A stretch of DNA of 51,047 nt from Chthoniobacterales bacterium. GTDB lineage: Bacteria > Verrucomicrobiota > Verrucomicrobiia > Chthoniobacterales > JACTMZ01. The notes under the pieces were generated by a model that was given only the letters and a program-made list of their open reading frames with translations, was not told where the DNA came from and searched no databases. The translations under genes were made by a program, and so were the position numbers. The stretch spans positions 1 through 51,047 of the forward strand of contig VEQL01000019.1 in the NCBI GenBank assembly GCA_018883245.1, read 5' to 3'. Below are positions 25,301-45,300 of this stretch, piece after piece (position 1 is the stretch's first letter; each line of letters opens with the position of its first letter).

Positions 25301-26930
25301 GGGCGTGGGCCTTATCTCCCCGCCGCCGCACCACGACATCTACTCGATCGAAGATCTCGCGGAGTTGATCCACGACCTCAAGAACGCCAATCGCCACGCG
25401 CGCATTTCGGTCAAACTCGTGAGCGAGGTCGGTGTCGGAACGGTCGCCGCGGGCGTGGCCAAGGCACATGCCGACGTTGTGCTTGTCAGCGGCTACGACG
25501 GCGGCACCGGCGCGTCGCCGCTTTCCAGCATCCAGCACGCGGGGATGCCTTGGGAACTCGGACTCGCCGAAACGCATCAGACCCTTCTGCTCAACAACCT
25601 CCGCAGCCGTATCGTCGTCGAAGTGGACGGCCAGCTCAAAACCGGACGCGACGTGGTCATCGGCGCGCTGCTCGGCGCCGAGGAATTCGGTTTCGCCACC
25701 GCGCCCCTCGTCGTCATGGGTTGCATCATGATGCGCGCCTGCCACCTCAACACCTGTCCCGTCGGCGTGGCCACGCAGGATCCGGAGCTGCGCAAAAAAT
25801 TCACCGGCGACGCGGACCATGTGGTCAACTTCATGCGCTTCATCGCCACCGAGGTGCGCGAACTCATGGCCAAGCTGGGCTTCCGCACGATCGATGAAAT
25901 GGTCGGACGCGTGGACCGGTTGGCCATGCGCAAGGCGGTCGATCACTGGAAGGCGCAGGGCCTCGATTACTCGCGCATCCTTTACGCTCCCGACGTGGGC
26001 GAAGATGTGGGCCGCTACTGCACGATGAAGCAGGATCATGGCATCGAGAAATCCCTCGACCTCACGACCCTGCTCAAAATTTGCGAGGCGGCCATCGAGC
26101 GCGGGGAAAAAGTGCACTCGCGCCTGCCGATCAAAAACGTCAACCGCGTGGTCGGCACCATCCTCGGCTACGAAATTTCCAAAGCCCACGGCATGGACGG
26201 CCTGCCGGAGGACACCATCGAACTCGATTTCGTCGGCTCGGCCGGCCAGAGCTTTGGTGCCTTCGCGCCTCGCGGTCTCACCCTGCGGTTGGAAGGCGAT
26301 GCCAACGACTACGTGGGCAAAGGGCTCAGCGGTGGAAAAATCGTCGTGCAGCCGCCCGGCGCGACAACCTTCGACGCCGAGACAAACATCATCATCGGCA
26401 ATGTCGCGTTCTACGGCGCCACGGGCGGCGAAGCCTACATCCGCGGCATGGCCGGGGAGCGCTTCTGCGTCCGCAACAGCGGCGTGAAGGCGGTCGTCGA
26501 GGCCGTCGGGGACCACGGATGCGAATACATGACCGGCGGACGCGTTGTCGTCCTCGGTCCCACCGGCCGCAACTTCGCGGCGGGCATGTCCGGCGGTATC
26601 GCCTACGTTTATGACGAGGCGGGCGACTTCCACACCCGTTGCAACATGGACATGGTCGATCTCGAGCGCCTGGACGACAAGGACGAGGCTGCCGAGGTCC
26701 GGGCCATGGTCGAGCGTCACGCGAAGTTCACGGGAAGCAAGCGCGCGCACCAGATCCTGGCCGGCTGGGAAAACTCGGCGCAGAAATTCGTCAAGGTCCT
26801 GCCGAAGGATTACAAGCGTGTGCTGCAGGCGATGGACCGGGTTCTCGCGGCGGGCCTCAGCGGCGACGAGGCCGTCATGGCCGCTTTCGAGGAAAATGCC
26901 CGCGACCTTGCGCGCGTGGGAGGCAATTGA
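22338..26930 (+). CDS. gltB: Glutamate synthase large (alpha) subunit
   Basis: Transfers the glutamine amide to 2-oxoglutarate, using ammonia channelled between sites. The protein has 1530 residues, full length. The N-terminal glutaminase has the nucleophile Cys19 in HESCGVGF, exposed after propeptide removal. The central and FMN domains include [17 protein letters not shown] and [16 protein letters not shown]. The 3Fe-4S cysteines are C1129, C1135 and C1140 in [13 protein letters not shown]. The C-terminal beta-helix is glycine-rich ([21 protein letters not shown]). It is followed after 3 nt by gltD. Confidence 0.97.
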
Positions 26931-26933
26931 TTT

Positions 26934-28418
<1,485 letters not shown>

Positions 28419-28751: not shown

Positions 28752-28826
28752 ATGAAATATCTCGCCGCGCTCTTCCTGCTCGCCCTGACTTTCGCCCTGT
28801 CGGGCTGCGCTTATCTCGAATTCTGA
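28752..28826 (+). CDS. Tiny lipoprotein (24 residues)
   Basis: ATG 28752 encodes MKYLAALFLLALTFALSGC followed by only AYLEF and a stop. The basic start, hydrophobic core and LSGC lipobox make an almost ideal lipoprotein signal. The mature peptide would be just six residues beginning with the lipidated Cys, like small entericidin-type lipoproteins in style. A short A/T-rich spacer precedes it, without a strong ribosome site. Its 3' end overlaps the AraC gene on the other strand by 16 nt. Confidence 0.5.
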   Translation: MKYLAALFLLALTFALSGCAYLEF

Positions 28827-29605
28827 TTTTTCGCCGGCCTGTGCCGGCTGCGGAAGTCCGCCGGATGCGCGGCGGATTCGCGGCGGAACACACGATTGAA
28901 CTGCGATACCGAGCCGAATCCCGACGCATAGGCGATCTCGATCACTTTCATGTCGGTATGGCGCAGGAGTTGCTTCGCCCTTTCGATGCGTGCCGCGGCG
29001 ATGAATCTGGTCAAGGTGAGGCCCAAACGCCGGCGGAACATCTCGCTGAAATAGGCGGCATTCATCTTTGCCGCGTGGGCCAGCGTGCTCAGTCGCCAGC
29101 GTTTTTCGGGATGCCGGCTGATCTCCAGCGCCGCTCGGTCGATCGCGGGGTAGGGGCAACCTTGCGTTTCTGCAGGCAGGCTCTGCGCGAGCTGCTGCGA
29201 AAACAGTTCGAGCAGACGCAGCGCGCCCTCGTATTGCCCTCGCGTTTTGCGCACCGCGCCGATGTGCCGCTGGTCGGCGTCGCCGTTCACCGCTGCGTGG
29301 CCCGTGTGAAGATAAGCCACGGTCTCGTCGCGCACCACGACCGGGACGGCGGATGATGTCAGCCCGGCGAAACAGCGCACCGTGCGCGGCGTTTTGCCCT
29401 GCAGTGCCTTGTGCGTCTGCTCGCAACGCGAACGCGCTTTGCCGTCCGCGAGAAATTGCCGGCAGCATTCCGGCAGGTCGGTGGCTGCGAGATTGGTTTC
29501 GCCCGGAGTCTCGATGCTCACCGGCAGACCCGTCGCGGCGCTGAAAGATTTCGCATGGTCGCGGGCCAGCGGTGTCGAACGCAGGATGTCGGACGCTTTG
29601 CTCAC
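28811..29605 (-). CDS. AraC-family regulator with PocR ligand-binding domain
   Basis: A 264-residue transcription factor. Residues about 10-150 form a PocR domain with its cysteine pattern (PECCRQFLADGKARSRCEQTH and later VRCFAGL), a sensory domain known for small organic ligands. Residues about 165-255 are the AraC DNA-binding domain: helices around LSTLAHAAKMNAAYFSEMFRR and VIEIAYASGFGSVSQFNRVFRRE. The start is ATG 29605. It is divergent from the cbb3 oxidase operon across a 173-nt spacer and so could control it, but nothing in the sequence proves this. Confidence 0.86.
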   Translation of the reverse strand: MSKASDILRSTPLARDHAKSFSAATGLPVSIETPGETNLAATDLPECCRQFLADGKARSRCEQTHKALQGKTPRTVRCFAGLTSSAVPVVVRDETVAYLHTGHAAVNGDADQRHIGAVRKTRGQYEGALRLLELFSQQLAQSLPAETQGCPYPAIDRAALEISRHPEKRWRLSTLAHAAKMNAAYFSEMFRRRLGLTLTRFIAAARIERAKQLLRHTDMKVIEIAYASGFGSVSQFNRVFRRESAAHPADFRSRHRPAKNQNSR

Positions 29606-29778: not shown

Positions 29779-29973
29779 ATGAGTGTCCTCTATCTGACGA
29801 TCTTCGTCAGCTTGATGCTGGCGCTCTTTTTCGCCGCCGGCTTTCTCTACCACCACGATTTCTCCGGCGGGGATCCGCTCCGGGACAGCCTTCTCCCGTT
29901 CAACAAGGAGGAACAAAACAAACAGAAACCCGGCGATGCCGCCGTCCGCGAGGAAAAGAAAAATCTGCCATGA
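29779..29973 (+). CDS. ccoS: CcoS-like cbb3 oxidase assembly protein
   Basis: A 64-residue protein with one N-terminal membrane span: MSVLYLTIFVSLMLALFFAAGFLYHH, then a short polar tail. The MSVLYL start and the DLxS/DPLRDSL spacing after the span match CcoS, a small protein needed to insert metal cofactors into cbb3 oxidase. A G-rich stretch (GGGCGGGG) lies just before the ATG. The stop overlaps the start of ccoNO by ATGA. It is the first gene of the operon, which is unusual since ccoS often comes last. Confidence 0.75.
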   Translation: MSVLYLTIFVSLMLALFFAAGFLYHHDFSGGDPLRDSLLPFNKEEQNKQKPGDAAVREEKKNLP

Positions 29974-32321
29974 ACAACACCACAACCGTTTCCGTGACCT
30001 ACGACGACAAGGTCGTGCGGTATTTCATGATGGCCGCCGTCTTCTGGGGGCTTGTCGCCATGACGGCCGGCGTCTTCATCGCCGCGCAGATGAGCTTCCA
30101 CGTGCTCAACTTCGACACCTCGTGGCTGACCTTCGGCCGCCTGCGTCCGTTGCACACCAATGCCGCGATCTTCGCTTTCGTCGGCAACATGATGTTCGCC
30201 GGGATTTACCACTCCACCCAGCGCTTGGTGCGCACGCGCCTGGCGTCCGGATTCCTCTCCTGGCTGCACTTCTGGGGTTGGCAGGCCATCATCGTCGCCG
30301 CGGCCATCACCCTCCCGCTCGGCTTCACGCGCGGCAAGGAATACGCCGAACTCATCTGGCCGATCAACATTGCCGTCGCCCTCATCTGGGTGGTTTTCGC
30401 GATCAACTTTTTCTGGACGCTGGCCGTGCGCAACGAGAAGTCGCTTTACGTGGCGATCTGGTTCTACATCGCCACCATCATCACGGTGGCGATGCTCTAC
30501 ATCGTCAACCATCTCTCGCTGCCCACGTCGCTGCTGCACTCCTATCCGATCTTCGGCGGCGTGCAGGATGCCCTCGTGCAGTGGTGGTATGGGCACAACG
30601 CCGTCGCGTTCTTCCTCACCACGCCGATCCTCGGCATCATGTATTACTATCTGCCGAAAGCGGCGGAGCGTCCCGTTTACAGTTACCGGCTTTCGGTCGT
30701 GCACTTCTGGTCGCTGGTGTTCATCTACATCTGGGCCGGACCGCACCATTTGCTCAACACCGCGCTGCCCGAGTGGCTGCAGACCCTCGGCATGACGTTC
30801 AGTCTCATGCTCTGGGCGCCCTCGTGGGGAGGCATGCTCAACGGCCTGCTCACCCTCCGCGGCGCCTGGCACAAACTGCGCACCGACCCAGTGCTCAAGT
30901 TCTTCGCCGCCGGCGTGACCTTCTACGGAATGTCCACCTTCGAGGGGCCGCTCCTCGCGATCCGCTCGGTCAACGCCCTTTCGCACTACACCGATTGGAC
31001 CATCGGACACGTGCACAGCGGCACGCTCGGCTGGAACAGCTTCATGGCCGCGGGAATGTTCTACTGGCTCGCGCCGCGCCTGTGGGGAACCAAACTTTTC
31101 TCCACCAAGCTCGCCGACGTCCATTTCTGGCTCGGGATGGTGGGCATCCTTCTCTACATCGCCGCGATGTGGGTGTCCGGCATCACCACCGGCCTCATGC
31201 TCAACTCCGTGACGTCCGAGGGCGTGCTCGCCTATCCGAACTTCCTCGAGGTCGTCAATTCGGTGCGGCCGATGCTGCACATGCGCGTGCTCGGCGGCGG
31301 TCTCTTCCTCCTCGGGTTCATCCTGATGACCTATAACCTCATCCGCACGGTGCGCAGCGGCACGCCGGTGACCACCACGGTCGAGGTCCCGGCGCCTGAA
31401 CGCCGCACGCGCGAGGGAATGACGCTCGCACAGGGCCTCTTCAACGCGCCGACGATGTATTCGGTGCTGATTGTCCTCTTCGCCTGCCTGTGGGGATTCA
31501 CCGGCGGCACCGTCAGCACGGTTTCCTTCGTGCTCCTCGTCGAGACCATGCTGGTTGCCATGATTCACCTCAGCGCATCCGGGGCGAAGTGGGGCGAATG
31601 GTATGAGCGGCTGCTTGAAAGCTGGCTGCCTTTCACGGTCCTTACCCTCCTTGCCGTCGTGCTCGGCGGGATGATCCAGATCCTGCCGCTCGTCTTCTCC
31701 AAACAGGCGGTCGATTACGAAAAGGCGACGCAAATCGTTTACACGCCGCTCGAGCTGTGCGGTCGCGACATCTACATCCGCGAAGGCTGCTACAACTGCC
31801 ACAGCCAGATGATCCGTCCCCTGGTCGGCGAAGTCCTGCGCTACGGCGAAAGCGGACGCCTCGGGCAATCTCTCTACGACCATCCGTTCCAATGGGGATC
31901 GAAACGCACCGGTCCGGATCTTCAGCGCGAAGGCGGGAAATATCCGAACATGTGGCACTTCCAGCACTTCGAGAATCCGCGCACCACGTCGATCGGCAGC
32001 AACATGCCGGCCTATCCGTGGCTTTACCGCCAGAAAGCCGATATCGCGTCCCTTCCGGGCAAAATCAGCGTCCTGCGCAAACTGGGCGTTCCATTCCCCG
32101 AGCGGACTCCCGACGAAATCAGCAGCGAATTCCTCGCCCAGGGACAGAAGATCGTCGATGACCTCGCGCCAAGCGGCGTGAAGATCAGCCCCGACAAGGA
32201 AGTGATCGCCCTCATCGCCTACATCCAGCAGCTCGGACGTTACAAAACCGATGCCCCGGCACCCGGGGGCACGGCGGATGCGCCGCCCGCGCCTTCGATG
32301 CCGCCGCAGGCCTCCCGCTGA
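29970..32321 (+). CDS. ccoNO: cbb3-type cytochrome c oxidase, fused subunits I and II (CcoNO)
   Basis: Core of a high-affinity terminal oxidase. The 783-residue protein fuses CcoN (about 1-475) to CcoO (about 490-770). CcoN elements are LRPLHTNAAIFAF (heme b His), WWYGHNAVAFF, WAGPHHLLNT (CuB histidines) and HVHSGTLGWN (heme ligands). A linker near VEVPAPERRTREG joins to CcoO, which carries one heme c site, CYNCH at 607-611, and METs downstream as possible axial ligands (IGSNMPAYPW). Fused CcoNO is known in Bacteroidetes and some PVC bacteria. It is translationally coupled to the preceding and following genes. Confidence 0.95.
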   Translation: MNNTTTVSVTYDDKVVRYFMMAAVFWGLVAMTAGVFIAAQMSFHVLNFDTSWLTFGRLRPLHTNAAIFAFVGNMMFAGIYHSTQRLVRTRLASGFLSWLHFWGWQAIIVAAAITLPLGFTRGKEYAELIWPINIAVALIWVVFAINFFWTLAVRNEKSLYVAIWFYIATIITVAMLYIVNHLSLPTSLLHSYPIFGGVQDALVQWWYGHNAVAFFLTTPILGIMYYYLPKAAERPVYSYRLSVVHFWSLVFIYIWAGPHHLLNTALPEWLQTLGMTFSLMLWAPSWGGMLNGLLTLRGAWHKLRTDPVLKFFAAGVTFYGMSTFEGPLLAIRSVNALSHYTDWTIGHVHSGTLGWNSFMAAGMFYWLAPRLWGTKLFSTKLADVHFWLGMVGILLYIAAMWVSGITTGLMLNSVTSEGVLAYPNFLEVVNSVRPMLHMRVLGGGLFLLGFILMTYNLIRTVRSGTPVTTTVEVPAPERRTREGMTLAQGLFNAPTMYSVLIVLFACLWGFTGGTVSTVSFVLLVETMLVAMIHLSASGAKWGEWYERLLESWLPFTVLTLLAVVLGGMIQILPLVFSKQAVDYEKATQIVYTPLELCGRDIYIREGCYNCHSQMIRPLVGEVLRYGESGRLGQSLYDHPFQWGSKRTGPDLQREGGKYPNMWHFQHFENPRTTSIGSNMPAYPWLYRQKADIASLPGKISVLRKLGVPFPERTPDEISSEFLAQGQKIVDDLAPSGVKISPDKEVIALIAYIQQLGRYKTDAPAPGGTADAPPAPSMPPQASR

Positions 32322-32323
32322 CC

Positions 32324-32491
32324 ATGTTCCAGCAACTGCAAATCCCGCAACTCAGCACGATCGGCGCGGTGGTCGCGTTGCTCGTCACCTTCGCGGCGTT
32401 TGTCGCGATCGTGGTCGCGACCATCCGTTACCCGAAAAGCAAAATCAAGAAACTGGAGAACCTTCCTTGGGAGGACGACAAAGCACCATGA
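32324..32491 (+). CDS. ccoQ: CcoQ-like small subunit
   Basis: A 55-residue protein with one membrane span (STIGAVVALLVTFAAFVAIVVATIRYPKS) and a polar tail LENLPWEDDKAP, the typical CcoQ layout, including the aromatic-acidic ending. It lies between ccoNO and ccoP, starting 2 nt after the former and overlapping the latter by ATGA. CcoQ stabilises cbb3 oxidase. The sequence is short, so the name rests mainly on position and topology. Confidence 0.78.
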   Translation: MFQQLQIPQLSTIGAVVALLVTFAAFVAIVVATIRYPKSKIKKLENLPWEDDKAP

Positions 32492-33033
32492 ACGACCAAC
32501 GCAAAACCGATGACGACGCGCTGCGTCACCATACCTACGACGGCATCCAGGAATATGACAAGCGCCTGCCGAACTGGTGGCTCTTCACCCTCTACGGCGC
32601 GATTGTTTTCTCCGCCGCTTACTGGGCCTACTACCACTGGTCGGCCCACATGGTGCCCGGCTACGTGCGCGTGGAAAGACAGATCGAGGAAATCCAAAAG
32701 GCCGCGCTTGCCAGCGGCGGAACCCCGACCGACATCCAGCTCTGGAACCTGAGCCGCGATCCCGCGGTGGTCGAGGCCGGCCAGAAGATCTACACCGCCA
32801 ACTGCGTGGCCTGCCATGGCGCGGAGTTGCAGGGCGGCATCGGGCAAAACCTCGTGGATGCCACATGGATCCACGGCGGCAAGCCGACGGACATCTACAA
32901 CACCATCCAAAAAGGCGTCCTCGAAAAAGGGATGCCCGTGTGGGGGCCGGTCCTCGGCGCGGCGCGTATCGCCGACGTTGTAGCGTTCGTCGTCAGCAAA
33001 AACCCGACGATCCAAAAGCCGGCCGAGCAATAG
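32488..33033 (+). CDS. ccoP: cbb3-type cytochrome c oxidase subunit III (CcoP), monoheme
   Basis: A 181-residue subunit that passes electrons to the core. The N-terminal YDGIQEYDKRLPNWWLFTLYGA is the usual CcoP membrane-anchor signature. A single cytochrome c domain follows with C106-V-A-C109-H110 and Met149 (KGMPVWG) as likely axial ligand. Most proteobacterial CcoP proteins carry two such domains and about 300 residues, so this is a shorter monoheme form. It is coupled to ccoQ. Confidence 0.93.
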   Translation: MNDQRKTDDDALRHHTYDGIQEYDKRLPNWWLFTLYGAIVFSAAYWAYYHWSAHMVPGYVRVERQIEEIQKAALASGGTPTDIQLWNLSRDPAVVEAGQKIYTANCVACHGAELQGGIGQNLVDATWIHGGKPTDIYNTIQKGVLEKGMPVWGPVLGAARIADVVAFVVSKNPTIQKPAEQ

Positions 33034-33049: not shown

Positions 33050-34438
33050 ATGAAGCCGAAAGCGCCCAGCATTGATTCGGTCACCACGATCAATGAAGAC
33101 GGGTCGCGCTACTTCGTCCACCCGGCCGATGTCAGCGGACCTTTCACCCTGAGCCGCCGGATTTTCGCCATTTTCCTCATCGCCCTCTACGTCTCGCTTC
33201 CCTTTATCCCGATCAAGGGCGAACCGGCGGTGTTCCTCGATATCTTCCACCGCAAGCTCCACATCTTCGGGCTTACCCTGATGTTCCAGGACTTGTGGCT
33301 GCTGTTTTTCCTCATCACCGGCATGGCCTTCGGGCTGTTCGTGGTCACCTCCGTCGCCGGCCGCCTCTGGTGCGGCTGGGCGTGTCCGCAGACCGTTTTT
33401 CTCGATCACGTGTTCCGCCGCGTCGAGCGCTTCATCGACGGGGACGCGCCCGCCCGGCGCCGGCTCGAGGATGCGCCGTGGACCGGCGGAAAAATATTCA
33501 AACGCGCGCTCAAGCACGGGATTTTCTTCCTTCTCTCCGCGGCCATCGCGCACATGTTCCTCTCGTATTTTGTCTCGTTGCCCTCGCTTTACGCCATGAT
33601 GCGGCATTCGCCGGGCGAGAACTGGGGCTTCTTCCTCTTCGTCTTCGCCCTCACCGGCGTCCTCTACTTCAACTTCGCGTGGTTCCGCGAACAGTTCTGC
33701 ATCATCATGTGCCCCTACGGGCGCCTCGGTTCCGCCCTCATCGACGACAACTCGATCGTCGTCGGCTATGACACCGTTCGCGGCGAGCCGCGGGGCAAGG
33801 CGGGGACAACCACCGGCGACTGCATCGACTGCCGCCGCTGCGTCCAGGTTTGTCCCACCGGCATCGACATCCGCCAGGGGTTGCAGATGGAGTGCATATC
33901 GTGCGAGGCCTGCATCGACGCCTGCGACGAGATCATGGTGAAAATCGGCCGTCCCAAGGGCCTTGTGCGCCACGATTCGCTCAACGCCCTGGCCGGGCGT
34001 CCGTCGAAGTTCTGGCGTCCGCGCCTTTTGATCTACATCGTTCTCGGCATGGTCGGTGCGTCGGCGTTCGCCTACGCCACGCAACAGGTCAAGCCCGTCA
34101 TCCTGTCGGTGCTGCGCATGCAGGGTGCGCCGTATTTCCGCGACCAGGGTTCGATCCGCAACAACTTCATGGTGCGCGTGGCCAACAAGCGCGCGGAGAC
34201 CCACGATTACACCGTCACCCTGGATTCTCCGGCGGCGGGCCTGTCATCGACCGGCGCCTCGGCGCACAAGCTCGCGCTCGGACCCGGGGAGGAAGTCCAG
34301 GAGCCGCTCATTATGACACTTCCCGACGCCGATTTTCACGGAAACTTCGACGTCAAAGTCCAGGTGCGCGGCCAAAGCGGGCAGGTGGAGGGCGAGAAAA
34401 CGGTTCCATTCCTCGGACCGTTCCGCGAAGCGCCATGA
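33050..34438 (+). CDS. ccoG: cbb3 oxidase accessory protein CcoG (FixG-like, ferredoxin-type)
   Basis: A 462-residue membrane protein implicated in Cu(II) reduction for oxidase maturation. It has five to six spans with CGWACPQTVFLD and MCPYGRLGSALID, typical of the family. Two 4Fe-4S motifs follow: CIDCRRCVQVCP and CISCEACIDACDE. The C-terminal about 120 residues form an immunoglobulin-like domain (VRVANKRAETHDYTVTL). Its stop overlaps the next small gene. Confidence 0.94.
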   Translation: MKPKAPSIDSVTTINEDGSRYFVHPADVSGPFTLSRRIFAIFLIALYVSLPFIPIKGEPAVFLDIFHRKLHIFGLTLMFQDLWLLFFLITGMAFGLFVVTSVAGRLWCGWACPQTVFLDHVFRRVERFIDGDAPARRRLEDAPWTGGKIFKRALKHGIFFLLSAAIAHMFLSYFVSLPSLYAMMRHSPGENWGFFLFVFALTGVLYFNFAWFREQFCIIMCPYGRLGSALIDDNSIVVGYDTVRGEPRGKAGTTTGDCIDCRRCVQVCPTGIDIRQGLQMECISCEACIDACDEIMVKIGRPKGLVRHDSLNALAGRPSKFWRPRLLIYIVLGMVGASAFAYATQQVKPVILSVLRMQGAPYFRDQGSIRNNFMVRVANKRAETHDYTVTLDSPAAGLSSTGASAHKLALGPGEEVQEPLIMTLPDADFHGNFDVKVQVRGQSGQVEGEKTVPFLGPFREAP

Positions 34439-34602
34439 CCTCGGGATTTTTCTCCAAACGTCCGTGGCTCCTCGTTTGGGTCGCCTTTATCGTGCTCATT
34501 GCGGCATGGGTCGCCACTTACATGGTGAGCCGCCGCGTTCCTTCGCAGAAACTCACGCCGGCGGAGGAAACTCTGCTGCTGCGAAAAAAGGAGGCGCAAT
34601 GA
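34435..34602 (+). CDS. Small single-span membrane protein in cco operon
   Basis: A 55-residue protein with one hydrophobic span (PWLLVWVAFIVLIAAWVATYMV) and a basic, polar tail ending RKKEAQ. It occupies the place where ccoH/FixH usually lies but is far shorter (FixH is about 150 residues) and has no FixH domain that I can see. A GGAGG box inside its last codons (34590-34594) serves the next gene. Possible role: assembly of the oxidase. Confidence 0.6.
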   Translation: MTSGFFSKRPWLLVWVAFIVLIAAWVATYMVSRRVPSQKLTPAEETLLLRKKEAQ

Positions 34603-35276
34603 TGACATTGCCCGAGATCACCGGACCGTTGGCCGCCCTGCTGGCCGGGCTCATCACCAGCCTGCATTGCGTGGGTATGTGCGGGCCTCTGGCCTGCTCC
34701 GCCTGCGCGCGGGGTGGCGGGCAGGGGAGCATGCAGGCGACGCTGATTTACCACGGGTCGCGCGTGGTGTCCTACGCCATTGTCGGGCTCGCGGCCGGAC
34801 TCGTCGGCCGGCGCCTGTCCGATGCGCTGCTTGGCGGCGGCACCCGATGGATGACATGGCTCTTCGTGCTCTTTTTCCTCGCGGTCGTGGTGGGTCTCGA
34901 CAAGCGCATCCGGCTGCCTGTTCCCAAAGGTTCCCTCGCGTGGATGGGTGCGGCTTCCGCCCGTTGCGGGGTGCGCGGACGCGCGGGCGTGCTCGGATTT
35001 TTCACGCCGCTGTTGCCTTGTGCCCCGCTTTATCTCGTCGTTGCCGCGGCTGCGCTCTCCGGATCCGCCTGGTCCGGCGGCTCGATCATGATCGCATTCG
35101 CCCTCGGCACCGTCCCGTTGCTTCTTGTGCTGCAATCGCAATTTTTCCGCCTCGGTGCGCGTTGGTCGCCGGATGCCATGGACTACGTGCGGCGCGGTCT
35201 CGCCTTCGTGAGTGTGATCCTCCTTGTGGCGAGGGGAACTTATACCGCATCCACCGGATGCCCGATGTGCCATTGA
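34599..35276 (+). CDS. TauE/SafE-type (UreH-like) membrane protein of the cbb3 cluster
   Basis: A 225-residue protein with about six spans. The N-terminal LLAGLITSLHCVGMCGPLACSAC matches the cysteine-containing UreH/SafE-like family often found next to ccoI, and the C-terminus ends STGCPMCH, adding two Cys and a His. These thiols suggest copper handling. GGAGG 4-7 nt before two adjacent ATG codons (34599 and 34602) is the strongest ribosome site in this operon. Its end overlaps the start of ccoI. Confidence 0.78.
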   Translation: MMTLPEITGPLAALLAGLITSLHCVGMCGPLACSACARGGGQGSMQATLIYHGSRVVSYAIVGLAAGLVGRRLSDALLGGGTRWMTWLFVLFFLAVVVGLDKRIRLPVPKGSLAWMGAASARCGVRGRAGVLGFFTPLLPCAPLYLVVAAAALSGSAWSGGSIMIAFALGTVPLLLVLQSQFFRLGARWSPDAMDYVRRGLAFVSVILLVARGTYTASTGCPMCH

Positions 35277-37651
35277 AAACGATCGCCGGAGAACAGCTTT
35301 TGCATTCGTGCAGGCACTGCCGCACGCGGTTCCGTCCGTCCGCCGATGAACAGGAATTTTGCTGCTCGGGCTGCCGCTTCGTGCACCATCTGTTGCACAA
35401 ACGCGGGCTCGGGGACTTTTATTCCTACGGCGAGACCATGTCCCCCGCGGGCAACTTCGTTTTCCACGACCGCGATTACCGGTGGCTGGAGAGCCAGCAG
35501 CGCGCTTCCGAGGCGGGGGCGGGGGACGTCGCCGAGACCATCGTCGATGTGCAGGGAATTTCCTGCGCGGCTTGCTTGTGGTTGATCGAGGCGGTGTTCA
35601 TGGAATGTCCCGGCGCGGTTTCCTGCGTGGTCAATTCATCTTCCGGCACCGCGCGCCTGCGGTGGACGCCCGGTGCGCTCGCGCTCGATGACTACGCGCG
35701 GGATGTGCAGCGATTCGGATATTTGCTCGGTCCGCCGCAGGGCAAAGCGCCCTCCTCCATGGGATCCCTGACCCGCAAGCTCGGTCTCTGCGGTTTTCTG
35801 GCCATGAACGCGATGCTTTTCGCGTCGCCCCGCTATTTCGGCATCGAGCCCGGCGATGCGCTCACCGCGCTCTTCGATGTCGTCTCTTTCGGTCTGGCCA
35901 CGGCCAGTATCGCCATCGGAGGAACGTTTTTCTTCCGGCGTGCGCTCGGCGCGTTGCGCATGGGCGCCCTGCATATCGACCTGCCCATTTCCCTCGGGTT
36001 GCTGATCGCCTACGCCGGTTCCGTAGGCGCGTGGCTCAGGGATCAGCACAGCTTCAACTACTTCGACTTTGTTTCGGTCTTCACTTTCCTGATGTTGCTC
36101 GGGCGCTGGTTGCAGGAGCGCGCGGTCGAGAACAACCGCCGGCGGCTCCTCGGGCTCAAGCTCTCGCCGGGACGCGTGCGTGTCATGGGGGATCCGGCCG
36201 CGGGCGAAAAGGGCGCGGAAGAAATCGTTTCGGGTTTGAAGTTTGCCGTCGCGCGCGGCCAAGTCGTTCCCGTGCGTTCGCGCCTGCTCGAACGCAGTGC
36301 GACGTTTGCGCTCAATTGGATCACCGGCGAGCCGGCCCCGCGCACTTTCCCGGCCGGAAGCATCGTGCCCGCGGGCGCACGCAGCGTGGATGCGGACGAC
36401 ACCGTGTTCGAAGCGCTGGAAGACTGGGCCGACTCGCAGCTTTCCGCGCTCCTGCGCATCGACGCCGAGCGCCAGTGGCGCAATCGCGGACTTGAAAAGT
36501 TGATCAAAGTTTATCTCTCGATCGTCATGGTCGTCGCCGCACTCGGCTTCGTCGCCTGGGGTTGGTCGGGGGGCGACTGGCCGGCCGCGTTCCAGGTGAT
36601 GATCTCGGTCCTTGTCGTCTCGTGTCCGTGTGCGATCGGCGTGGCCTTGCCGCTTTTGGACGACATCGCGGCGGCACGCCTGCAGCAATACGGGGTTTAT
36701 CTGCGCGAGGGTTCCCTCTGGGCGCGGCTCAAGCAGGTGACCACGCTTCTCTTCGACAAGACAGGCACCGTGACGCTGGAGACTTTGCGCCCGGCCGATC
36801 CGGCGGTCTTCGACACCCTGTCCGCCGAAACAAAATCCTACCTCATGCGTCTGGTCGAGCGGAGTCTGCATCCGGTCGCCGCCTGTTTGCGGGAAGTTCT
36901 GCTTTCGTCGGGCGTCGAGCCTGCGACGGGCGGGGGGATGGTCCATGAAATTCCCGGCATGGGTCTCGAGTGGGAATCTCCGGTCGGTCTCTGGCGCCTC
37001 GGCCGTGCCGCGTGGGCATTGCATGGCGGCGAATCCGGCGGGACCATCCTCGCTTTGGACGGCACCGCGTTGGCGCGCTTTGACTTCCGCGAAGAGCTGC
37101 GCCCCGACGCGGCCGACCAGGTTGCGCACTTCGCCTCGCGCGGCATGCCCGTTTACCTGCTCAGCGGAGACGAGCCTGCGCGCGTGAAATCCATGGCACA
37201 TGTCCTCGGGCTCCCCGAATCCCACGCCATGGGCGGCCTCACTCCCGCGGAAAAAGCCGGCCTCGTTCGCGCGCGCTGGAGCGGCAATGCCCTCATGCTC
37301 GGCGACGGAGCCAATGACAGCCTTGCCTTCGATGCGGCGCTCTGCCGTGGCACGCCGGCGGTCGATGCCGGGCTTCTCGAGCACAAGGCGGATTTTTATT
37401 TGCTCGGGCGCGGACTGCACGGGCTGGGCGCGCTGTTCGCGGCGGGCCGCAGTCATCACCGCACTGCGCGCGCGGTTTTCGGCTTCGCCCTTCTTTACAA
37501 CGCCTGCGCGGTTTCGGCCGCGCTTGCCGGCTGGATGAGTCCGCTCGTCGCCGCGGTCATCATGCCGCTCAGTTCGCTCGTCTGCATCGGAATCGTGCTC
37601 ACGGGCTTCCGCATTTCCACTCCGCTCCGAACCAAAACACAAAACTCATGA
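35258..37651 (+). CDS. ccoI: Copper-transporting P-type ATPase CcoI (FixI-like)
   Basis: Exports copper across the membrane for cbb3 oxidase assembly. From ATG 35258 the protein has 797 residues. The N-terminus has the paired-Cys metal-binding CRHCRTRF...CCSGC region of the FixI/CcoI branch and an HMA-type site C106-A-A-C109. The transport motif CPC is at 456-458, the phosphorylated Asp500 in DKTGTVT, and GDGANDS completes the hinge. Phosphatase motif TGE is present (WITGEPAP). GTG 35267 is an alternative start. It is coupled to the next gene by ATGA. Confidence 0.93.
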   Translation: MPDVPLKTIAGEQLLHSCRHCRTRFRPSADEQEFCCSGCRFVHHLLHKRGLGDFYSYGETMSPAGNFVFHDRDYRWLESQQRASEAGAGDVAETIVDVQGISCAACLWLIEAVFMECPGAVSCVVNSSSGTARLRWTPGALALDDYARDVQRFGYLLGPPQGKAPSSMGSLTRKLGLCGFLAMNAMLFASPRYFGIEPGDALTALFDVVSFGLATASIAIGGTFFFRRALGALRMGALHIDLPISLGLLIAYAGSVGAWLRDQHSFNYFDFVSVFTFLMLLGRWLQERAVENNRRRLLGLKLSPGRVRVMGDPAAGEKGAEEIVSGLKFAVARGQVVPVRSRLLERSATFALNWITGEPAPRTFPAGSIVPAGARSVDADDTVFEALEDWADSQLSALLRIDAERQWRNRGLEKLIKVYLSIVMVVAALGFVAWGWSGGDWPAAFQVMISVLVVSCPCAIGVALPLLDDIAAARLQQYGVYLREGSLWARLKQVTTLLFDKTGTVTLETLRPADPAVFDTLSAETKSYLMRLVERSLHPVAACLREVLLSSGVEPATGGGMVHEIPGMGLEWESPVGLWRLGRAAWALHGGESGGTILALDGTALARFDFREELRPDAADQVAHFASRGMPVYLLSGDEPARVKSMAHVLGLPESHAMGGLTPAEKAGLVRARWSGNALMLGDGANDSLAFDAALCRGTPAVDAGLLEHKADFYLLGRGLHGLGALFAAGRSHHRTARAVFGFALLYNACAVSAALAGWMSPLVAAVIMPLSSLVCIGIVLTGFRISTPLRTKTQNS

Positions 37652-38982
37652 ACAACACTGACACACAACCGAACGGCGCTTCCAACGCGGGAGCGATCAC
37701 ATTCGCCGTCACCGCGCTGGTCTTCCTCGCGCTCGGCTGCCTCATGCTCGCCGGACGCCCCGGATTCCTCCTCGGTGAAACGCTCACCGGACACGGCCAG
37801 GCGTGGATCAATCTTCTGATCTTCGGGTTCGGCCTGCCTGCCGCCTTCGGTGCGGTTTACTGGGCGCTGCCGTCCGTCTTCGCTCTGCCGCTTTACAGCA
37901 AGCAGATGGTGTTTCTGCACTACGGCTTCCATCTTGCCGGCCTGGCGATCGTCACCGCCATGCCCTTCGTCACGGATCTCCCGCAGGCCGGCATGGGCGC
38001 AACCTTCATCGCTTGCGGCGCCGTCGTGTTCATTGTGAACATTGCCCTCACGCTCCGCGGAATGGAGCGCCCCGATGCCGCCAGCGCGTTTCTCAGCACT
38101 GTCTGCGTGTGGCTGGCCATCGTTGCGTTCCTCGGCATTCCTTTCGCGGCCAAGCCGCCCCTTCCGTTCCTTGCCACCACCAGCTGGAGCGCGGGCTGGC
38201 TGCTGTTTGTCATAGCCGGCGTCTTTTTCAACACGCAGATCGCGCTGGCTTTGCGCGTCACGCCCGCTGCCGTCGGTGCCGCGTCCGAGCGCACCCCCGC
38301 GGCGTGGTTCGCTCTCGCTGTCATCAACCTCGGTGTGGCCTGGAGCGTCGCGGCTGCCACATTCGGTCTGCTCGGCTTTCTTCTTCTCACTTCGGCCATC
38401 TTTCTTCTGGGGGCGTTGATCTTCCTCGGTGACTTCTGGCTGCTGCTCCAACGCCGCACAGCGCGCGAATTGGGGTGGGATGCGAAAATCCTGCTCGCTT
38501 CCGTGTGGATGATTCCCGCCACCGCCGCGGTGCTCATTTACAATGTGGTCGAACGCCTCGGCATCGAGCCCGTGGCCGCCGTGGATCCGCAGGCAGCCGC
38601 CGGTCTGGCGCCCGTCGTCGAGCCCGCGCCGATCACCGTGATGGCTCTCGATTGGACAGTCGGTCTCGTCGCGCTCATGGCCACTGCCGTTCCCGGGCTC
38701 GTCGCGATCATTTTCCAGCTGCTCAAGCTCCGCTCCGGGGTCCGTGCGGAAACCACAGCCCGCGAAAAAGTGGCCGGCCAAGTGCTGCTCGCTTCGTTCT
38801 TCAACTACGCGGTCGGAGCCGGCTTGGTTGTCGTCGGTGCGTGGGGTGCGGATCAGCAGATGCTCGGCCTCGGGGCCGTGTTCCTCGTGGTCGGCGCGCT
38901 CGGCTTCCTCGGCAATTTTCTCTACGGCCTTGGACAATCCTCCGACGCCGCGGAAGCAGGCACCGAGGCAGTCCGCGCGTAG
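37648..38982 (+). CDS. Polytopic membrane protein, oxidase subunit I-like, few histidines
   Basis: A 444-residue protein with about 12 predicted membrane segments, last gene of the cco operon. The stretch GHGQAWINLLIFGFGLPAAFGAVYW (49-73), then FLHYGFHLAGLAIV, resembles the CcoN region around its first heme His (LHTNAAIFAFVGNMMFAGIY). But the whole protein has only three histidines (49, 91, 95), against six or more needed for hemes and CuB, so it cannot be a normal oxidase. It may be a heme-binding or assembly protein. The family is not recognised with certainty. Confidence 0.7.
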   Translation: MNNTDTQPNGASNAGAITFAVTALVFLALGCLMLAGRPGFLLGETLTGHGQAWINLLIFGFGLPAAFGAVYWALPSVFALPLYSKQMVFLHYGFHLAGLAIVTAMPFVTDLPQAGMGATFIACGAVVFIVNIALTLRGMERPDAASAFLSTVCVWLAIVAFLGIPFAAKPPLPFLATTSWSAGWLLFVIAGVFFNTQIALALRVTPAAVGAASERTPAAWFALAVINLGVAWSVAAATFGLLGFLLLTSAIFLLGALIFLGDFWLLLQRRTARELGWDAKILLASVWMIPATAAVLIYNVVERLGIEPVAAVDPQAAAGLAPVVEPAPITVMALDWTVGLVALMATAVPGLVAIIFQLLKLRSGVRAETTAREKVAGQVLLASFFNYAVGAGLVVVGAWGADQQMLGLGAVFLVVGALGFLGNFLYGLGQSSDAAEAGTEAVRA

Positions 38983-39046: not shown

Positions 39047-39131
39047 GCCGGCGTGGCGAAATGGCAGACGCAACGGACTTAAAATCCGTTGGGACGAAAG
39101 TCCCGTGCGGGTTCAAGTCCCGCCGCCGGCA
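39047..39131 (+). tRNA. tRNA-Leu (anticodon UAA)
   Basis: An 85-nt cloverleaf with acceptor arms GCCGGCG and CGCCGGC, anticodon stem ACGGA/TCCGT around the loop CTTAAAA (anticodon TAA), a long variable arm (GGGAC/GTCCC) as in class II tRNAs, and T-arm GCGGG-TTCAAGT-CCCGC. The discriminator base is A and CCA is not encoded. It lies just upstream of the giant repeat gene. Confidence 0.95.
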
Positions 39132-39261: not shown

Positions 39262-39281
39262 AATACCCTTTAGTGGGTATT
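39262..39281. promoter_or_regulatory. 7-bp inverted repeat upstream of the giant gene
   Basis: AATACCC (39262-39268) and GGGTATT (39275-39281) are exact reverse complements with a 6-nt loop, in the 250-nt spacer between tRNA-Leu and the giant gene, about 100 nt before its start. It could be an operator or a leader hairpin. The rest of the spacer shows no convincing promoter pair or gene. Confidence 0.3.
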
Positions 39282-39381
39282 GTGGCATCATAGATTCGCG
39301 TGTAGTTTCTGTGATGATCCTTCTCTGGGGCATTCAACTTCTAGCCCGATTAATGTCCGCTCCTTAGCTCACGCCATCTGC

Positions 39382-42300
39382 ATGGGGAAATCCCACCATA
39401 TCGGCGCAGCCGCGCCTGCATCCGTCTTTTTGCTCTGCCGCTCACGCAGCGCTCTGGTGTTGTCGGTATCTCTGCTGGCCGCGCTTTCGCTTCCGCTCTC
39501 AGTGCATGCGGCGAACCGTGGTTGGACGGGAACCGGGGCAGCGACCAATGCCAACTGGAGTCTTGCGGCCAACTGGGGCGGGACCGTGCCTGTAGCGGGT
39601 GACGATCTTACGTTCAACGTCACCACAGGATTAACGAACACTAACGATCTCACGTCCGGCATCCTCCTGCGCAATATCACCTTCGGCACTGCTGCCGGTA
39701 ATTTCTTCCTGTCTGGCAATGCCATTTCTTCGGAAGGTTCGTTCAACAACAATACCACCAGCGGAACCAACACGCTGGCGTTCAATATTGCTCTCACTCT
39801 TGCCTCCCACGGTTTCAACGTGGCTACGGGCGGCACCATGTTGGTGAGCGGTTCTATTTCTGGCGCGTCCAGTGCTATCAACCTAAACAGCGGCAACACG
39901 GCACTAGGCACTCTCATCCTCTCTGGTTCAAATTCGTTCGGCGGCGGAGTCACCGTGACCGAAGGTGTGCTCGATATACGCAACAACAATGCTTTGGGCG
40001 CGACGGCGGCGGGAACCACCGTCCTGAGCGGCGGCGAGCTGAGGCTGAGTGGCGGCATCACGGTCAATGAAGCGCTCACCAACAGTAGCACGGGTTCCGG
40101 CGCCGGGGCCACGACTGGCGGCCTGCGAAATGTGTCGGGCGATAACACTTGGGGCGGCCTCATCACCTTGGGCGCCGCGGCGCGAATCAATTCGGATTCG
40201 GGCACGCTCTTCATTACCAATACCGGCACTATCACGGGCGCTACCTTTGGCCTCAGCTTGGGCGGCGCCGGCAACATCTCACTTGCCAGTGTCATAGGCA
40301 CGACCAGTGGCACCTTGACCAAAGATGGCTCAGGAACAGCAACTCTCACCGCCGCCAACACCTACACGGGCGGCACCACGTTGAACGGAGGAACTCTTTC
40401 TCTGGGCAACGCGGGTGCGCTGGGCACATCCGGAACGATCAGTTTCGGCGGCGGCACACTGCAGTATAGCGGGTCCAACACGACGGACTACTCCGGCCGT
40501 TTTAGCACAGCTGCCAACCAGGCGATCGGCATCGACACAGCGGGTCAATCGGTGACCTTCGCCACCGCTTTGACCAGCTCAGGAGGTTCCTTGACCAAGC
40601 TTGGCGCGGGAACCCTGACTTTGGCGGCGGCCAACACATTCAGCGGCAGCACCGTGGTTCAAGCAGGTGTCCTAGTCCTCTCGAACAATCTCGGCTTGCA
40701 AAACAGTGCTTACAACACCGATGGAGGGGGAAATCTTGCCATCTCGGGAACAACTCCCACCTTCGGAGGGCTCTCCGGTGCGGTGGATCTCGCCACGGAA
40801 ATAGTGTCCGGTTACTCCGGTGTCACCAGCTTGACTCTCAATCCGGCCTCGGGCGTGAGCCAAACTTATTCGGGCGCCATCACCGACGGGGCGGTTGGCA
40901 TGACGCTGACCAAGACGGGCGCGGGAACGCAAGTTCTCTCCGGCGCGAATACCTACACGGGCGGCACGGCCATTAATGCCGGCACTTTGTCGGTGGCGAA
41001 CGCGAATGCCTTGGGCTCGACGGGAACGATCAGTTTCGGCGGCGGCACACTGCAATACGGTGCGGGCGGCACGACCGACTATTCCAGCCGTTTCAGCACG
41101 GCGGCCAGTCAGGCGATCAATATCGACACAGGCGGTCAGTCCGTGACCTTTGGTAGCGCTTTGACCAGCTCCGGAGGTTCCTTGACCAAACTTGGCTTGG
41201 GAACACTGGCCCTTTCCGGCGCCAATTCCTACACCGGCGGCACCTCGCTCAACGGCGGCACGCTGTCACTGGGCAGCACGGGTGCTTTGGGCACGACGGG
41301 AACGATCAGTTTCGGTGGCGGCACCCTGCAATACAGCGCGGGCAACACGACTGACTACTCCAGCCGTTTCAGCACGGCGGCCAGCCAGGCGATCAGCATC
41401 GACACGGGCGGTCAGTCCATTTCCTTCGGCACAGCTTTGACCAGTTCCGGTGGTTCTTTGACCAAACAAGGTGAAGGAACGCTCACGCTGTCGCTCAACA
41501 ACACCTACAATGGCGCAACGACCCTCATCGGCGGGACGCTGCGAGCGACAACAAGCACGGGCGCGCTGGGGGCCGGGGCCTTGTCCTTGGGGGGCGGTAT
41601 TTTGGAGTTGGCCAACGATTCCGGATTGAATTTCGCACGCAACACCACGGTCACGGGCAATACTCAGATTCTGTCCGAGCGTCTGAATGCAGGCGTAGGC
41701 GTTACTCACACTTTGGGCACGCTCTCCATTGGCGCAAGCACGCTGACCGCCGGGACGGACGCTTCGGTGACATCGGGCTTGGCGGGCCTAACCTTCGGGG
41801 CTGCTACCTTGACCGGTAACGCTACTTTCGCTGTGAATTCTGGAACGTTGCTGACCTTCGGAAGCACGATGGGAGGCGATTTCACCAAGACTTTCGATGG
41901 TGCTGGCAACACGACGGTCAATGGTGTCGTCAGCGGAGCGGGCGGGATGGTGAAAAGCGGCACGGGCACGCTCACGCTCGCCGCGGCCAATACTTTCACG
42001 GGCAATCTGACCATCAGCAATGGCGCGGTGCGCGGCATCTCCAATCTGGCTTCGCTTGGTGGTGTGACTTCGGTCATCCTTGCCGGTGGCAATCTGGAGT
42101 TGGACAACAATACAGGCCTCGCCTACGGCGAGGCTGTCGTGGTCTCGAACAACGCAACCATCACCACGGCCCGTCTCACGGGTGGAGCAGGTGTCACTCA
42201 TACTTTGGGCACCCTTAATATCGGGGCGCAGACCATGACCGTTGCAACTGATGCAACTTTGACTTCCGGCACGGCAGGTTTGACGTTTGGCGCTGTCACG

Positions 42301-45300
42301 TTGCGGGAAAGCGGGGCGACTTTCAGTCCCAACGCCGGGACATTGCTCACGCTTGGGGCGGTTTCCGGAGCCGGGTTCGATCTTTTCGTCGGCGGAGATG
42401 GCAACACTACTTTTAATGGCGCGATTACCAACGGTGCCGGGTCGGTGACCAAAAACGGGGCCGGAACCATGACGATTTCGGTCTCCTCCACTTATACTGG
42501 AGGGACCACCATCAACGCCGGCACGTTAGCAACCGGCGGCAACCAGCGCATGGCCGATGCGGGCGCACTCACACTGAACGGCCCGACGGCTGTATTCAAC
42601 TTGGGCGCCAACAACGAAACCTTGGGCGTGGTGACACTGACCGACGGAACGATCAGCGGCAGCGGCGGCACGCTCACCGCCAGCCGCTACGCTGTGGAGA
42701 ACGGCTTGATCAGCGCCATTCTTGCCGGCGCCGGGGGCATGACAAAAACGGGCCAAGGCACGGTAACGCTGTCCGGTCTGAATACGTTCACGGGCAATCT
42801 GACCAATCTGGGCGGCACTGTGCGGGCCACGACCAGCGCCGGCGCTTTGGGGGGCGGAAGCGTTATGTTGTCGGGCGGCGACCTCGAACTGGCCAATGAC
42901 GCCAACATCAGCTTCTCCGATCCTGTCCTCGTTACCAGCAACACAACCATAACCTCCGACCGTCTCACTTTGGGGGCCGGTATCACTTCAACACTCGGCA
43001 CATTGACCAACGGGGCGCAGACCATCAGCATCCAGCGAGGAGCCAACGTGAACAGCGGCACGGCCGGGGTGACCTTTGGCGCCGTCACGCTCAACGCCAG
43101 CGGCGGAACTTACAACGTTGCCAGCGGCGCACAATTGACGCTCGGTGCCATCAGTGGTGCGGGCAACAGTTTCACCGTTGATGGCGCGGGCAACACGACC
43201 ATCAGCGGCATCATCGGCACGGGTGCCGGTGCGCTTACCAAGGACGGTTCGGGCACCCTAACGCTATCCGCGGTCAACACCTATACCGGTGGGACCACGA
43301 TCAATGCGGGAGCCGTCACCATCACTGCTGCTGACCGTCTGGCGAATGCTGGAGCGCTCATCCTCAACGGCCCGACCGCCGTCTTCAACATCGGAACGTT
43401 CAACGAAGCAGTCGGTGCAGTGACTTTGACCGAGGGAACAATCAGCGGCACGACCGGTGTTCTCACTGGTTCCAGCTACGATTTGCAGAACGGTTCGGTC
43501 ACCGCCAATCTCGGCGGGGCCGGGATCAACTTGGCCAAGACGGGTTCCGGCACTGTTGTCCTTTCCAGCGCGACCAACTCTTACACCGGCACGACAACGG
43601 TCGGCGGCGGCGTGTTGCGCGTGACCAATTTGGTCAATGCTAACACCAATAGTTCCATTGGCGCGGGCACCACGGTGATTTTGACCAACGGTGGCGTCCT
43701 CGACTATGCAGGCACGACCAACTCCTCGATGAACCGCGGCATCAACCTTGCCGCGGGCAATGGCGGCATCGGTGTTTCCAACGGTTCCACCGCGCTCACC
43801 ATTTCGGGCGTGATCAGCAATACGGGCTCGCTCAGCAAATTCGGGGCGGGCACTTTGATCCTCGCCGGTGCGAACACCTACAACGGTGGAACTTTGGTCA
43901 GTGCGGGCGCGCTGCAGGGCGACACAACGGGTTTGCAGGGCAATATCACCAACAACGCCTCGCTTGTCTTTGATCAAGCGGCCAACGGCACCTTCGCCGG
44001 GGATTTGAGCGGCAACGGATCATTGATCAAGACCAACAGCGGAACGCTCATCCTGACCGGTGCCAACAGCTACTCGGGCGCCACGACCATCGGCGGCGGC
44101 ACCTTGTCCGTGAGCACAAGCGCGGCAGTGGCGGGCACTTCGGGCATCAACATGGCGAATGGCACGACTTTCCTTTACACGGGCGCGGCAGGCACAATCG
44201 ACCGCAACTTCACCGTCACCGGGGGAACGGGAACCCTGCGCAACACCGGCGGGGGCACGCTGACGCTGTCGGGCGGACTTTCCAAAAACGGCACAGTCCT
44301 GCAGTTCAACAGCGGCAACTTTAACATCACGGGCGTCATCAGCGGCGCAAATGCCAATTCTGATCTCATCGTCGATAGCGCCACGGTCACGCTTTCCAAC
44401 GCTAATACCTACAACGGCCCGACATATGTCCGCAACGCGGGTGTGCTCAATGCAAACGTGGCCGGCGCGCTGCCGACCAACACCCGCACGGCCATGCACC
44501 TCGATGATACTGGCGGGGGCGGTTCGACCCTCGGTCTTGGTGCGAACCAAGCGGTCGCTTCGCTGACCGGCGCGGACACTTCAGTCGTTGCTCTGGGCGC
44601 GAACACGCTGACCATCGGCACATCGTCCGGCAGCACGACTTTCGCCGGCGTCATCAGCGGGACGGGCGGCCTCGTCAAAGACGGCGGGAGCACGCAAATT
44701 TTGACGGGCAGCAACACCATGAGCGGACCGATCACTATCAGCGCGGGCACGCTGCAAATCGGCAACGGCAGTCTTGGTGCATCCATCGGTTCGGTGAGTG
44801 CCATCACCAACGACGGCTCTCTGGTCTTCAAACTCGGTTCCGCGACACACGCATCCTCGACCGTGATCAACGCGCAGATCAGCGGCACAGGTTCGCTCAC
44901 GCAAGACAGCCCCGGCGGCATTGTTTTCCTCGACAACACGAACAGCTACAGCGGTGGCACCACGATCGTTGCGGGTGAAATCCATGCCTCGACCGCTTCC
45001 AGTCTGGGCACGGGTTCGGTCACACTCACCGGCACCAACGCGACCAGCCTCGCCAAATTGCATTACAGCAATGCGGCGTCACCGCTGAGCATCGGCGCGC
45101 TGACCCTGAACGGAAACGCCGAGATCGCCCTCGAATCGCTCAATTCCATCCAGAGCACCGGGGCCATCACTGTCAACAGCACGAACAACTTCCTTTCACT
45201 CAATACTCCTTGGAATCAAGGCACCAACATCCTGATCTCGGGCACTTCGCTCACGCTGGGTGGCGGTGCTTCGATTTTCATGACCGGACCGCTCATCGAC

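Follow-up and report, generated by a model that had tools for sequence, protein, structure and literature searches.

The catalytic subunit of a heme-copper oxidase (HCO) holds six histidines as ligands of the low-spin heme, heme b3 and CuB, and NnrS is counted among the HCO homologues. Pei et al. are said to have described, in 2014, HCO-homology (HCOH) families built from a single four-helix unit or from three, many of them in denitrification contexts. Most of the three-unit HCOH proteins, though not all, reportedly keep two histidines and could bind one heme, and the resemblance is said to be strongest to HCO helices 9-12. We analysed a stretch of 51,047 nucleotides (the window; contig VEQL01000019.1, assembly GCA_018883245.1) from a Chthoniobacterales bacterium of the phylum Verrucomicrobiota, in which the open reading frame (ORF) at 37648-38982 closes the cco gene cluster of a cbb3-type oxidase. 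As judged from its predicted structure and alignments, the product of this ORF, called X below, is almost certainly an HCO-fold homologue without the known ligands. X and its Verrucomicrobiota sister family, called D (12 proteins found), fit the HCOH kind by architecture: X has 12 helices in three homologous four-helix units, its first unit is closest to the third unit of CcoN, and its relatives are linked to denitrification. X differs from most reported three-unit HCOH proteins in that the two-histidine heme pair occurs in none of eight X proteins, and in sitting in a cbb3 operon. The identity of X is strong; for its function we infer, tentatively, a cofactor-less pseudo-oxidase that acts as a non-catalytic accessory of cbb3 maturation. 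A literature search, which covered subscription papers thinly, returned no title or abstract opening on this gene or on a ligand-less HCOH member fixed in a cbb3 operon.

The AlphaFold2 model of X (8-row alignment, no templates) consists of 12 long helices, with a predicted local distance difference test score (pLDDT) of 82.4 and a predicted template modelling score (pTM) of 0.86, and its helix order is that of HCO subunit I. When the model was run against the PDB with Foldseek, the best 22 matches, which comprise every one with E <0.03, were chains of HCOs or nitric oxide reductases (NORs), headed by a CcoN (E=1.9e-6, template modelling score 0.70 on the query). VIA-align 2 superposed the model on CcoN (8smr_E) with Z 35.6 over 390 residues at 3.2 A (model 7-438 to chain 8-470), and on NorB (4xyd_A) with Z 35.3. 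A structure prediction had been proposed in an earlier reading of this DNA from its letters (the sequence-only reading), and it yields a very strong fold match to HCOs. A chance match between helical membrane proteins was considered and rejected, as a control profile of Nuo-type proteins with 12-14 helices scored 0.1% against X and 0.3% against X and D together, and those 22 Foldseek matches were HCO or NOR without exception. Sequence searches of solved structures with X gave one unrelated match at E=2.9 and otherwise none, and a PHROGs search gave nothing (best E 0.03). Function does not follow from the fold that X and the HCOs have in common.

At the level of sequence profiles, X and D match over the full length at 99.8% with seven D sequences, and the value did not change with five more members. 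X against CcoN (TIGR00780; PDB 8smr_E, 3mk7) reached 88%, aligning X 68-141 to CcoN 362-466. After both had been cut into four-helix units, the first unit of X matched the third of CcoN at 95.6% (<2% for CcoN units 1 and 2), while units 2 and 3 of X had no sequence match to any CcoN unit (all <2%), and global hhalign of X gave nothing reliable beyond the first unit. Against CtaD, X scored 16%, and X pooled with D (the five more members included) 78%. D alone reached 49% to CcoN, 25% to CtaD and 8.5% to the Nuo-type control, and because of this last value D scores below about 25% were disregarded. The three internal units recognise one another in the X and D profile (units 1-2 96.6%, 1-3 92.1%, 2-3 86.0%); the corresponding scores within CcoN (1-2 and 2-3) were artefacts of overlapping cuts and were not used. 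A Pfam scan of X gave no match, COX1 (PF00115) and NnrS (PF05940) included, and the one NCBIfam match, over residues 66-127, was to NF011053, a CcoNO model, with 17.1 bits where the cut-off is 1080; the ccoN model TIGR00780 was not matched above cut-off. Nor did family D match any Pfam or NCBIfam family at cut-off among those scanned. The NnrS family, also of polytopic membrane proteins, was rejected as a home for X, since Pfam gave no match and the profile score was 0.1%; it took the pooling of X and D to reach 28%, and this in a shifted register.

The D profile was searched against 387 genomes, all from the Verrucomicrobiota, and 12 matched: the window's own through X, one through a CcoNO protein, and ten through D (two copies in G413). 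The CcoNO protein, from another part of the phylum (G237; L110 586-2745), came up with the D profile (E=1.1e-8) as well as with that of X (E=5.2e-9), which argues directly, as sequence evidence, for kinship with CcoN. X nevertheless is not simply a worn-down CcoN copy, because the proteins that match its sequence from end to end belong to family D, and the match to CcoN is confined to the first four-helix unit of X. The sequence-only reading had proposed a degenerate CcoN paralogue. An oxidase fold that cannot be an oxidase, linked to a cbb3 operon, is what we find, and simple descent from CcoN is the part that finds no support. Its suggested profile comparison with CcoN and NnrS came out for the former and not for the latter. 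That reading had also seen CcoN-like helix sequence at the first histidine; the stretch concerned is residues 66-140, which starts after His49 and aligns with the third of CcoN that spans helices X-XII.

X contains exactly three histidines, His49, His91 and His95, as had been counted before in what was called an oxidase-like membrane protein, and none lies at an alignable CcoN ligand position. D proteins carry a helix-2 histidine plus a helix-6 His-x-His. A conserved glycine lies five residues after the helix-2 histidine and after the second of the helix-6 pair, and one also lies at this distance from the second histidine of the CcoN HVH motif. All three of these heme-type histidines are present in 9 of the 12 D proteins, two in L108 and none in L107 and L111; at the same positions the eight X proteins have none (0/8), and in X itself Trp184 and Leu186 take the places of the helix-6 pair. 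The earlier statement that X cannot hold the full heme/CuB set was right and even understated, as X has no histidine at either of the heme-type positions of its nearest relatives. With no heme or CuB ligands X should not reduce O2 or NO, and it would not replace the oxidase, because an intact CcoN is encoded in the same operon. Among the roles suggested by the sequence-only reading (assembly, heme loading or regulation), heme loading looks the least likely, both heme-type histidines being gone.

His49 stands six residues ahead of the ligand position of CcoN and D (Asn55 in X) and is found in 6/8 X proteins, having been lost in L020 and L021, so that it is not invariant and no special role is supported. 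Two outcomes had been named as speaking against the sequence-only reading, loss of His49 in homologues and lack of an HCO fold match, and they point opposite ways: His49 is lost, yet X matches the HCO fold very strongly. The histidines that persist are in helix 3, where His95 is conserved in 8/8 and His91 in 7/8 X proteins (Gln in L018); with D included, the counts are 20/20 and 19/20, all D proteins having His91. His91 is probably structural, because its counterpart is the histidine of an HFW-ending motif that recurs three times in CcoN, once per unit, in 12/12 CcoN proteins. It is very unlikely that X binds one heme or copper ion through His91 and His95, with or without Cys123, and acts as a carrier or transporter of that cofactor. 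The conservation of the pair, the presence of Cys123 in 8/8 X proteins and the adjoining copper pump gene would fit such a carrier, but His91 matches a histidine in all three CcoN units that is outside the ligand set given above, glutamine takes its place in L018, and His95 is equally conserved in D proteins that have separate heme-type histidines.

The ligand-less D proteins L107 (1462-2835 +) and L111 (1456-2829 +) are still encoded beside DUF2249 genes, and in the L114 stretch a ligand-less D gene is also beside a NirK-like gene. In a tree of X and D, L107 and L111 cluster with L008, which keeps all three histidines, while X forms one side of a branch (100/100). The heme-type ligands were therefore probably lost at least twice, in X and in L107 and L111, to judge from these sequences; the tree was rooted at the midpoint, and the direction of loss is inferred from it. 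That the HCO fold shed its heme-type ligands at least twice in the phylum with the helix-3 histidine pair kept suggests that it has heme-free uses.

The setting of D differs from that of X. In the twelve stretches around D genes (with L039 outside the sample), 19 neighbour or nearby proteins were run against Pfam, of which one (L040 3515-5056) had no match. A DUF2249 gene adjoins D in seven of the twelve (L035, L036, L037, L112, L113, L114 and L116). Also near D are multicopper-oxidase (NirK-like) proteins (L034, L040, L114), nitrous oxide reductase propeller proteins (L038, L115), NnrS (L112, L114), SCO1 (L038), a protein of the cytochrome c552 nitrite reductase type (NrfA-like; L112) and Crp-type regulators (L034, L036). 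Nitric oxide (NO) inhibits oxidases, and X could have kept an NO-related role from this neighbourhood, in NO sensing, scavenging or tolerance, being co-expressed with cbb3 to protect it. The DUF2249 genes and the NirK-, NosZ-, NnrS- or NrfA-like genes near D point that way, as does the continued association of L107 and L111 with DUF2249. We consider this unlikely, as X has no heme-type histidine for NO, the window's genome lacks DUF2249, which is missing from 4/6 X genomes (present in two), and X is located in the cco operon instead. X seems to have exchanged the surroundings of D for that operon. On the sequence comparisons, X would be a sister group or an offshoot of this Verrucomicrobiota family near denitrification genes, and would have become fixed behind ccoI in one cbb3 lineage. 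PMC11218638 cites Pei et al. 2014 as connecting DUF2249 with the HCO superfamily.

The cbb3 cluster consists of nine tightly packed genes (Table 1), in the order ccoS-like, ccoNO fusion, ccoQ-like, ccoP, ccoG, ccoH-like, PF13386/DsbD_2, ccoI and X. The X ORF is intact, from ATG to TAG, and its start overlaps the ccoI stop (ATGA, 37648-37651), which bears out the earlier description of X as the end of a coupled nine-gene cluster. The names ccoNO, ccoG and ccoI are well supported by family matches, and ccoP by its domains. The same nine-gene order is repeated in L016, L019, L020 and L021.

Table 1. Genes of the cbb3 cluster and codons of X discussed in the text
Feature	Position	Strand	Basis or remark
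ccoS-like ORF	29779..29973	+	FixS E=0.006, below cut-off; name weak
ccoNO fusion, true catalytic subunit, canonical His motifs intact	29970..32321	+	Family matches, motif check
ccoQ-like small ORF	32324..32491	+	Name from position and size only
ccoP	32488..33033	+	FixP_N plus cytochrome c domains
ccoG	33050..34438	+	Family matches
Small ccoH-like ORF	34435..34602	+	Name from position and size only
PF13386/DsbD_2 membrane protein	34599..35276	+	Pfam
ccoI, Cu-exporting P1B-type ATPase	35273..37651	+	Start uncertain: TTG 35273 or ATG 35258; family matches
X, 444-aa, 12-helix HCO-fold protein without heme/Cu ligands; final cco cluster gene	37648..38982	+	Predicted fold, alignment
H49 codon, start of helix 2	37792..37794	+	Not a ligand position; lost in 2/7 relatives
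N55 codon, helix-2 heme-type position of D / second His of CcoN HVH	37810..37812	+	N,N,T,S,K,I,Y,Y in eight X proteins
H91 codon, helix 3, equivalent to xHFW-motif His of all three CcoN units	37918..37920	+	Alignment
H95 codon, helix 3, invariant in 20/20 X and D proteins	37930..37932	+	Alignment
C123 codon, helix 4, 8/8 X and 0/12 D proteins	38014..38016	+	Alignment
W184-L185-L186 codons, helix 6, site of D His-x-His	38197..38205	+	W184 and L186 at the pair positions

Scanning genome contigs with two peptide patterns retrieved 74 stretches, seven of which were confirmed as X relatives (L016-L022, all from Verrucomicrobiota metagenome-assembled genomes (MAGs), five of them named Chthoniobacterales); by this method distant X proteins outside the phylum could be missed. 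None of three pattern stretches from viral contigs was a relative, and a plasmid search gave no lead. A search with X alone matched 6/57 related genomes, its own included, and in G026 also yielded the distant D protein L008. X lies immediately 3' of ccoI in the window and in 6/7 relatives; the two genes either overlap, by 4-20 bases, or are 4-17 bases apart. COX1 was searched for in 54 related genomes, and ten were found, and checked in sequence, to have a CcoNO fusion; the search also picked up oxidase genes of other types, for example open frames of about 695 aa in G001, G002, G005 and G010. X is present in six of these (G000, G007, G008, G009, G022 and G026), which are all the X genomes of the sample. 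In an 11-row CcoNO tree the seven X-bearing operons (L020 included) form one side of a branch (100/98). NnrS is encoded elsewhere in the window's own genome (C48); across this genome and 37 related ones it was matched in 8/10 CcoNO genomes (one a fragment) against 3/28 others, so that in this order NnrS seems to accompany cbb3.

X could be pictured as a lasting, non-catalytic part of the mature cbb3 complex, packed against CcoNO, given its operon position and spacing and its confinement to one CcoNO branch. We regard this as distinctly unlikely: four CcoNO genomes are without X, X diverges faster than CcoNO and CcoP, and its gene is placed after the biogenesis genes ccoG and ccoI and not among the structural ones.

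The ratio of nonsynonymous to synonymous substitution rates (dN/dS) against the orthologue in MAG VE1 was 0.096 for X, compared with 0.155 for CcoI, 0.115 for CcoG and 0.097 for CcoNO. X is under purifying selection and maintained. In several pairs dS was near or past saturation, and only the VE1 pair was used. A pseudogene was rejected on the same value and on the intactness of X in 8/8 cases.

An accessory role in cbb3 maturation is our best guess because X is placed after CcoI, which PMC8475189 calls a central hub of cbb3 biogenesis. The oxidase-like fold, the missing ligands, the presence of CcoNO in all six X genomes, the shared CcoNO branch and the low dN/dS against VE1 speak for it too. 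X would be made right after CcoI and take its place in the membrane next to CcoI or CcoNO, where its CcoN-like shape could hold a maturing intermediate, as a scaffold or placeholder. The helix-3 HxxxH, together with the X-specific Cys123, might offer a transient Cu(I) or partner site, which is the least certain step. That X is a dedicated chaperone or placeholder for cbb3, i.e. a cofactor-free HCO-fold assembly factor recruited from a denitrification-linked family, we hold to be possible and rather doubtful. If true, a CcoN-shaped, ligand-less protein encoded right after the copper pump CcoI would give a handle on CuB insertion; the pathways of CuB uptake and delivery are described as poorly understood in PMC5829832.

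Several observations weigh against an accessory role in maturation. A second, divergent X copy in MAG VE1 (L018, 3113-4405; L098) has no cco genes in the flanks examined. X had no match at E up to 1e-3 in four of the ten CcoNO genomes (G015, G020, G021 and G025) and is thus dispensable in the wider group. In G015 and G020 the gene after ccoI is not X, in G025 the contig ends there, and in G021 no ccoI was seen nearby; the idea that X always follows ccoI does not hold in view of L018/L098, G015 and G020. The classical copper chaperone is not missing, since the window's own genome has two SCO1 matches. X as a stand-in for SCO1 was in fact rejected, 8/10 CcoNO genomes having an SCO1 match and G022 (with X) and G021 (without X) both having none. 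The dN/dS of X is 0.106 against L019 and rises to 0.451 against L020 and 0.304 against L021, and X diverges faster at longer distance, with 46.6% identity to its L019 counterpart compared with 67.8% for CcoI. His91 and possibly His95 may be purely structural. The L018 copy and the cco genomes without X would also fit an unrelated membrane function, with X merely co-transcribed; this has a slim chance of being right, given that X tightly adjoins ccoI in 6/7 relatives and is confined to one CcoNO branch.

An FNR-box pattern had 21 matches against a chance mean of 10.3, none of them <=1 kb upstream of the ccoS-like ORF, and a promoter and terminator scan gave no lead. Upstream of the cluster, at 22338-28418, are two long ORFs that resemble by eye the large and small subunits of glutamate synthase, and beside the cluster start a divergent ORF (28811-29605, minus strand) resembles an AraC-type regulator, likewise by eye. 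Downstream of X lies a tRNA-Leu gene (39047-39131), and adjoining it, at 39280-47928, is a very long repetitive ORF of 2882 aa whose end resembles, by eye, a PEP-CTERM sorting signal.

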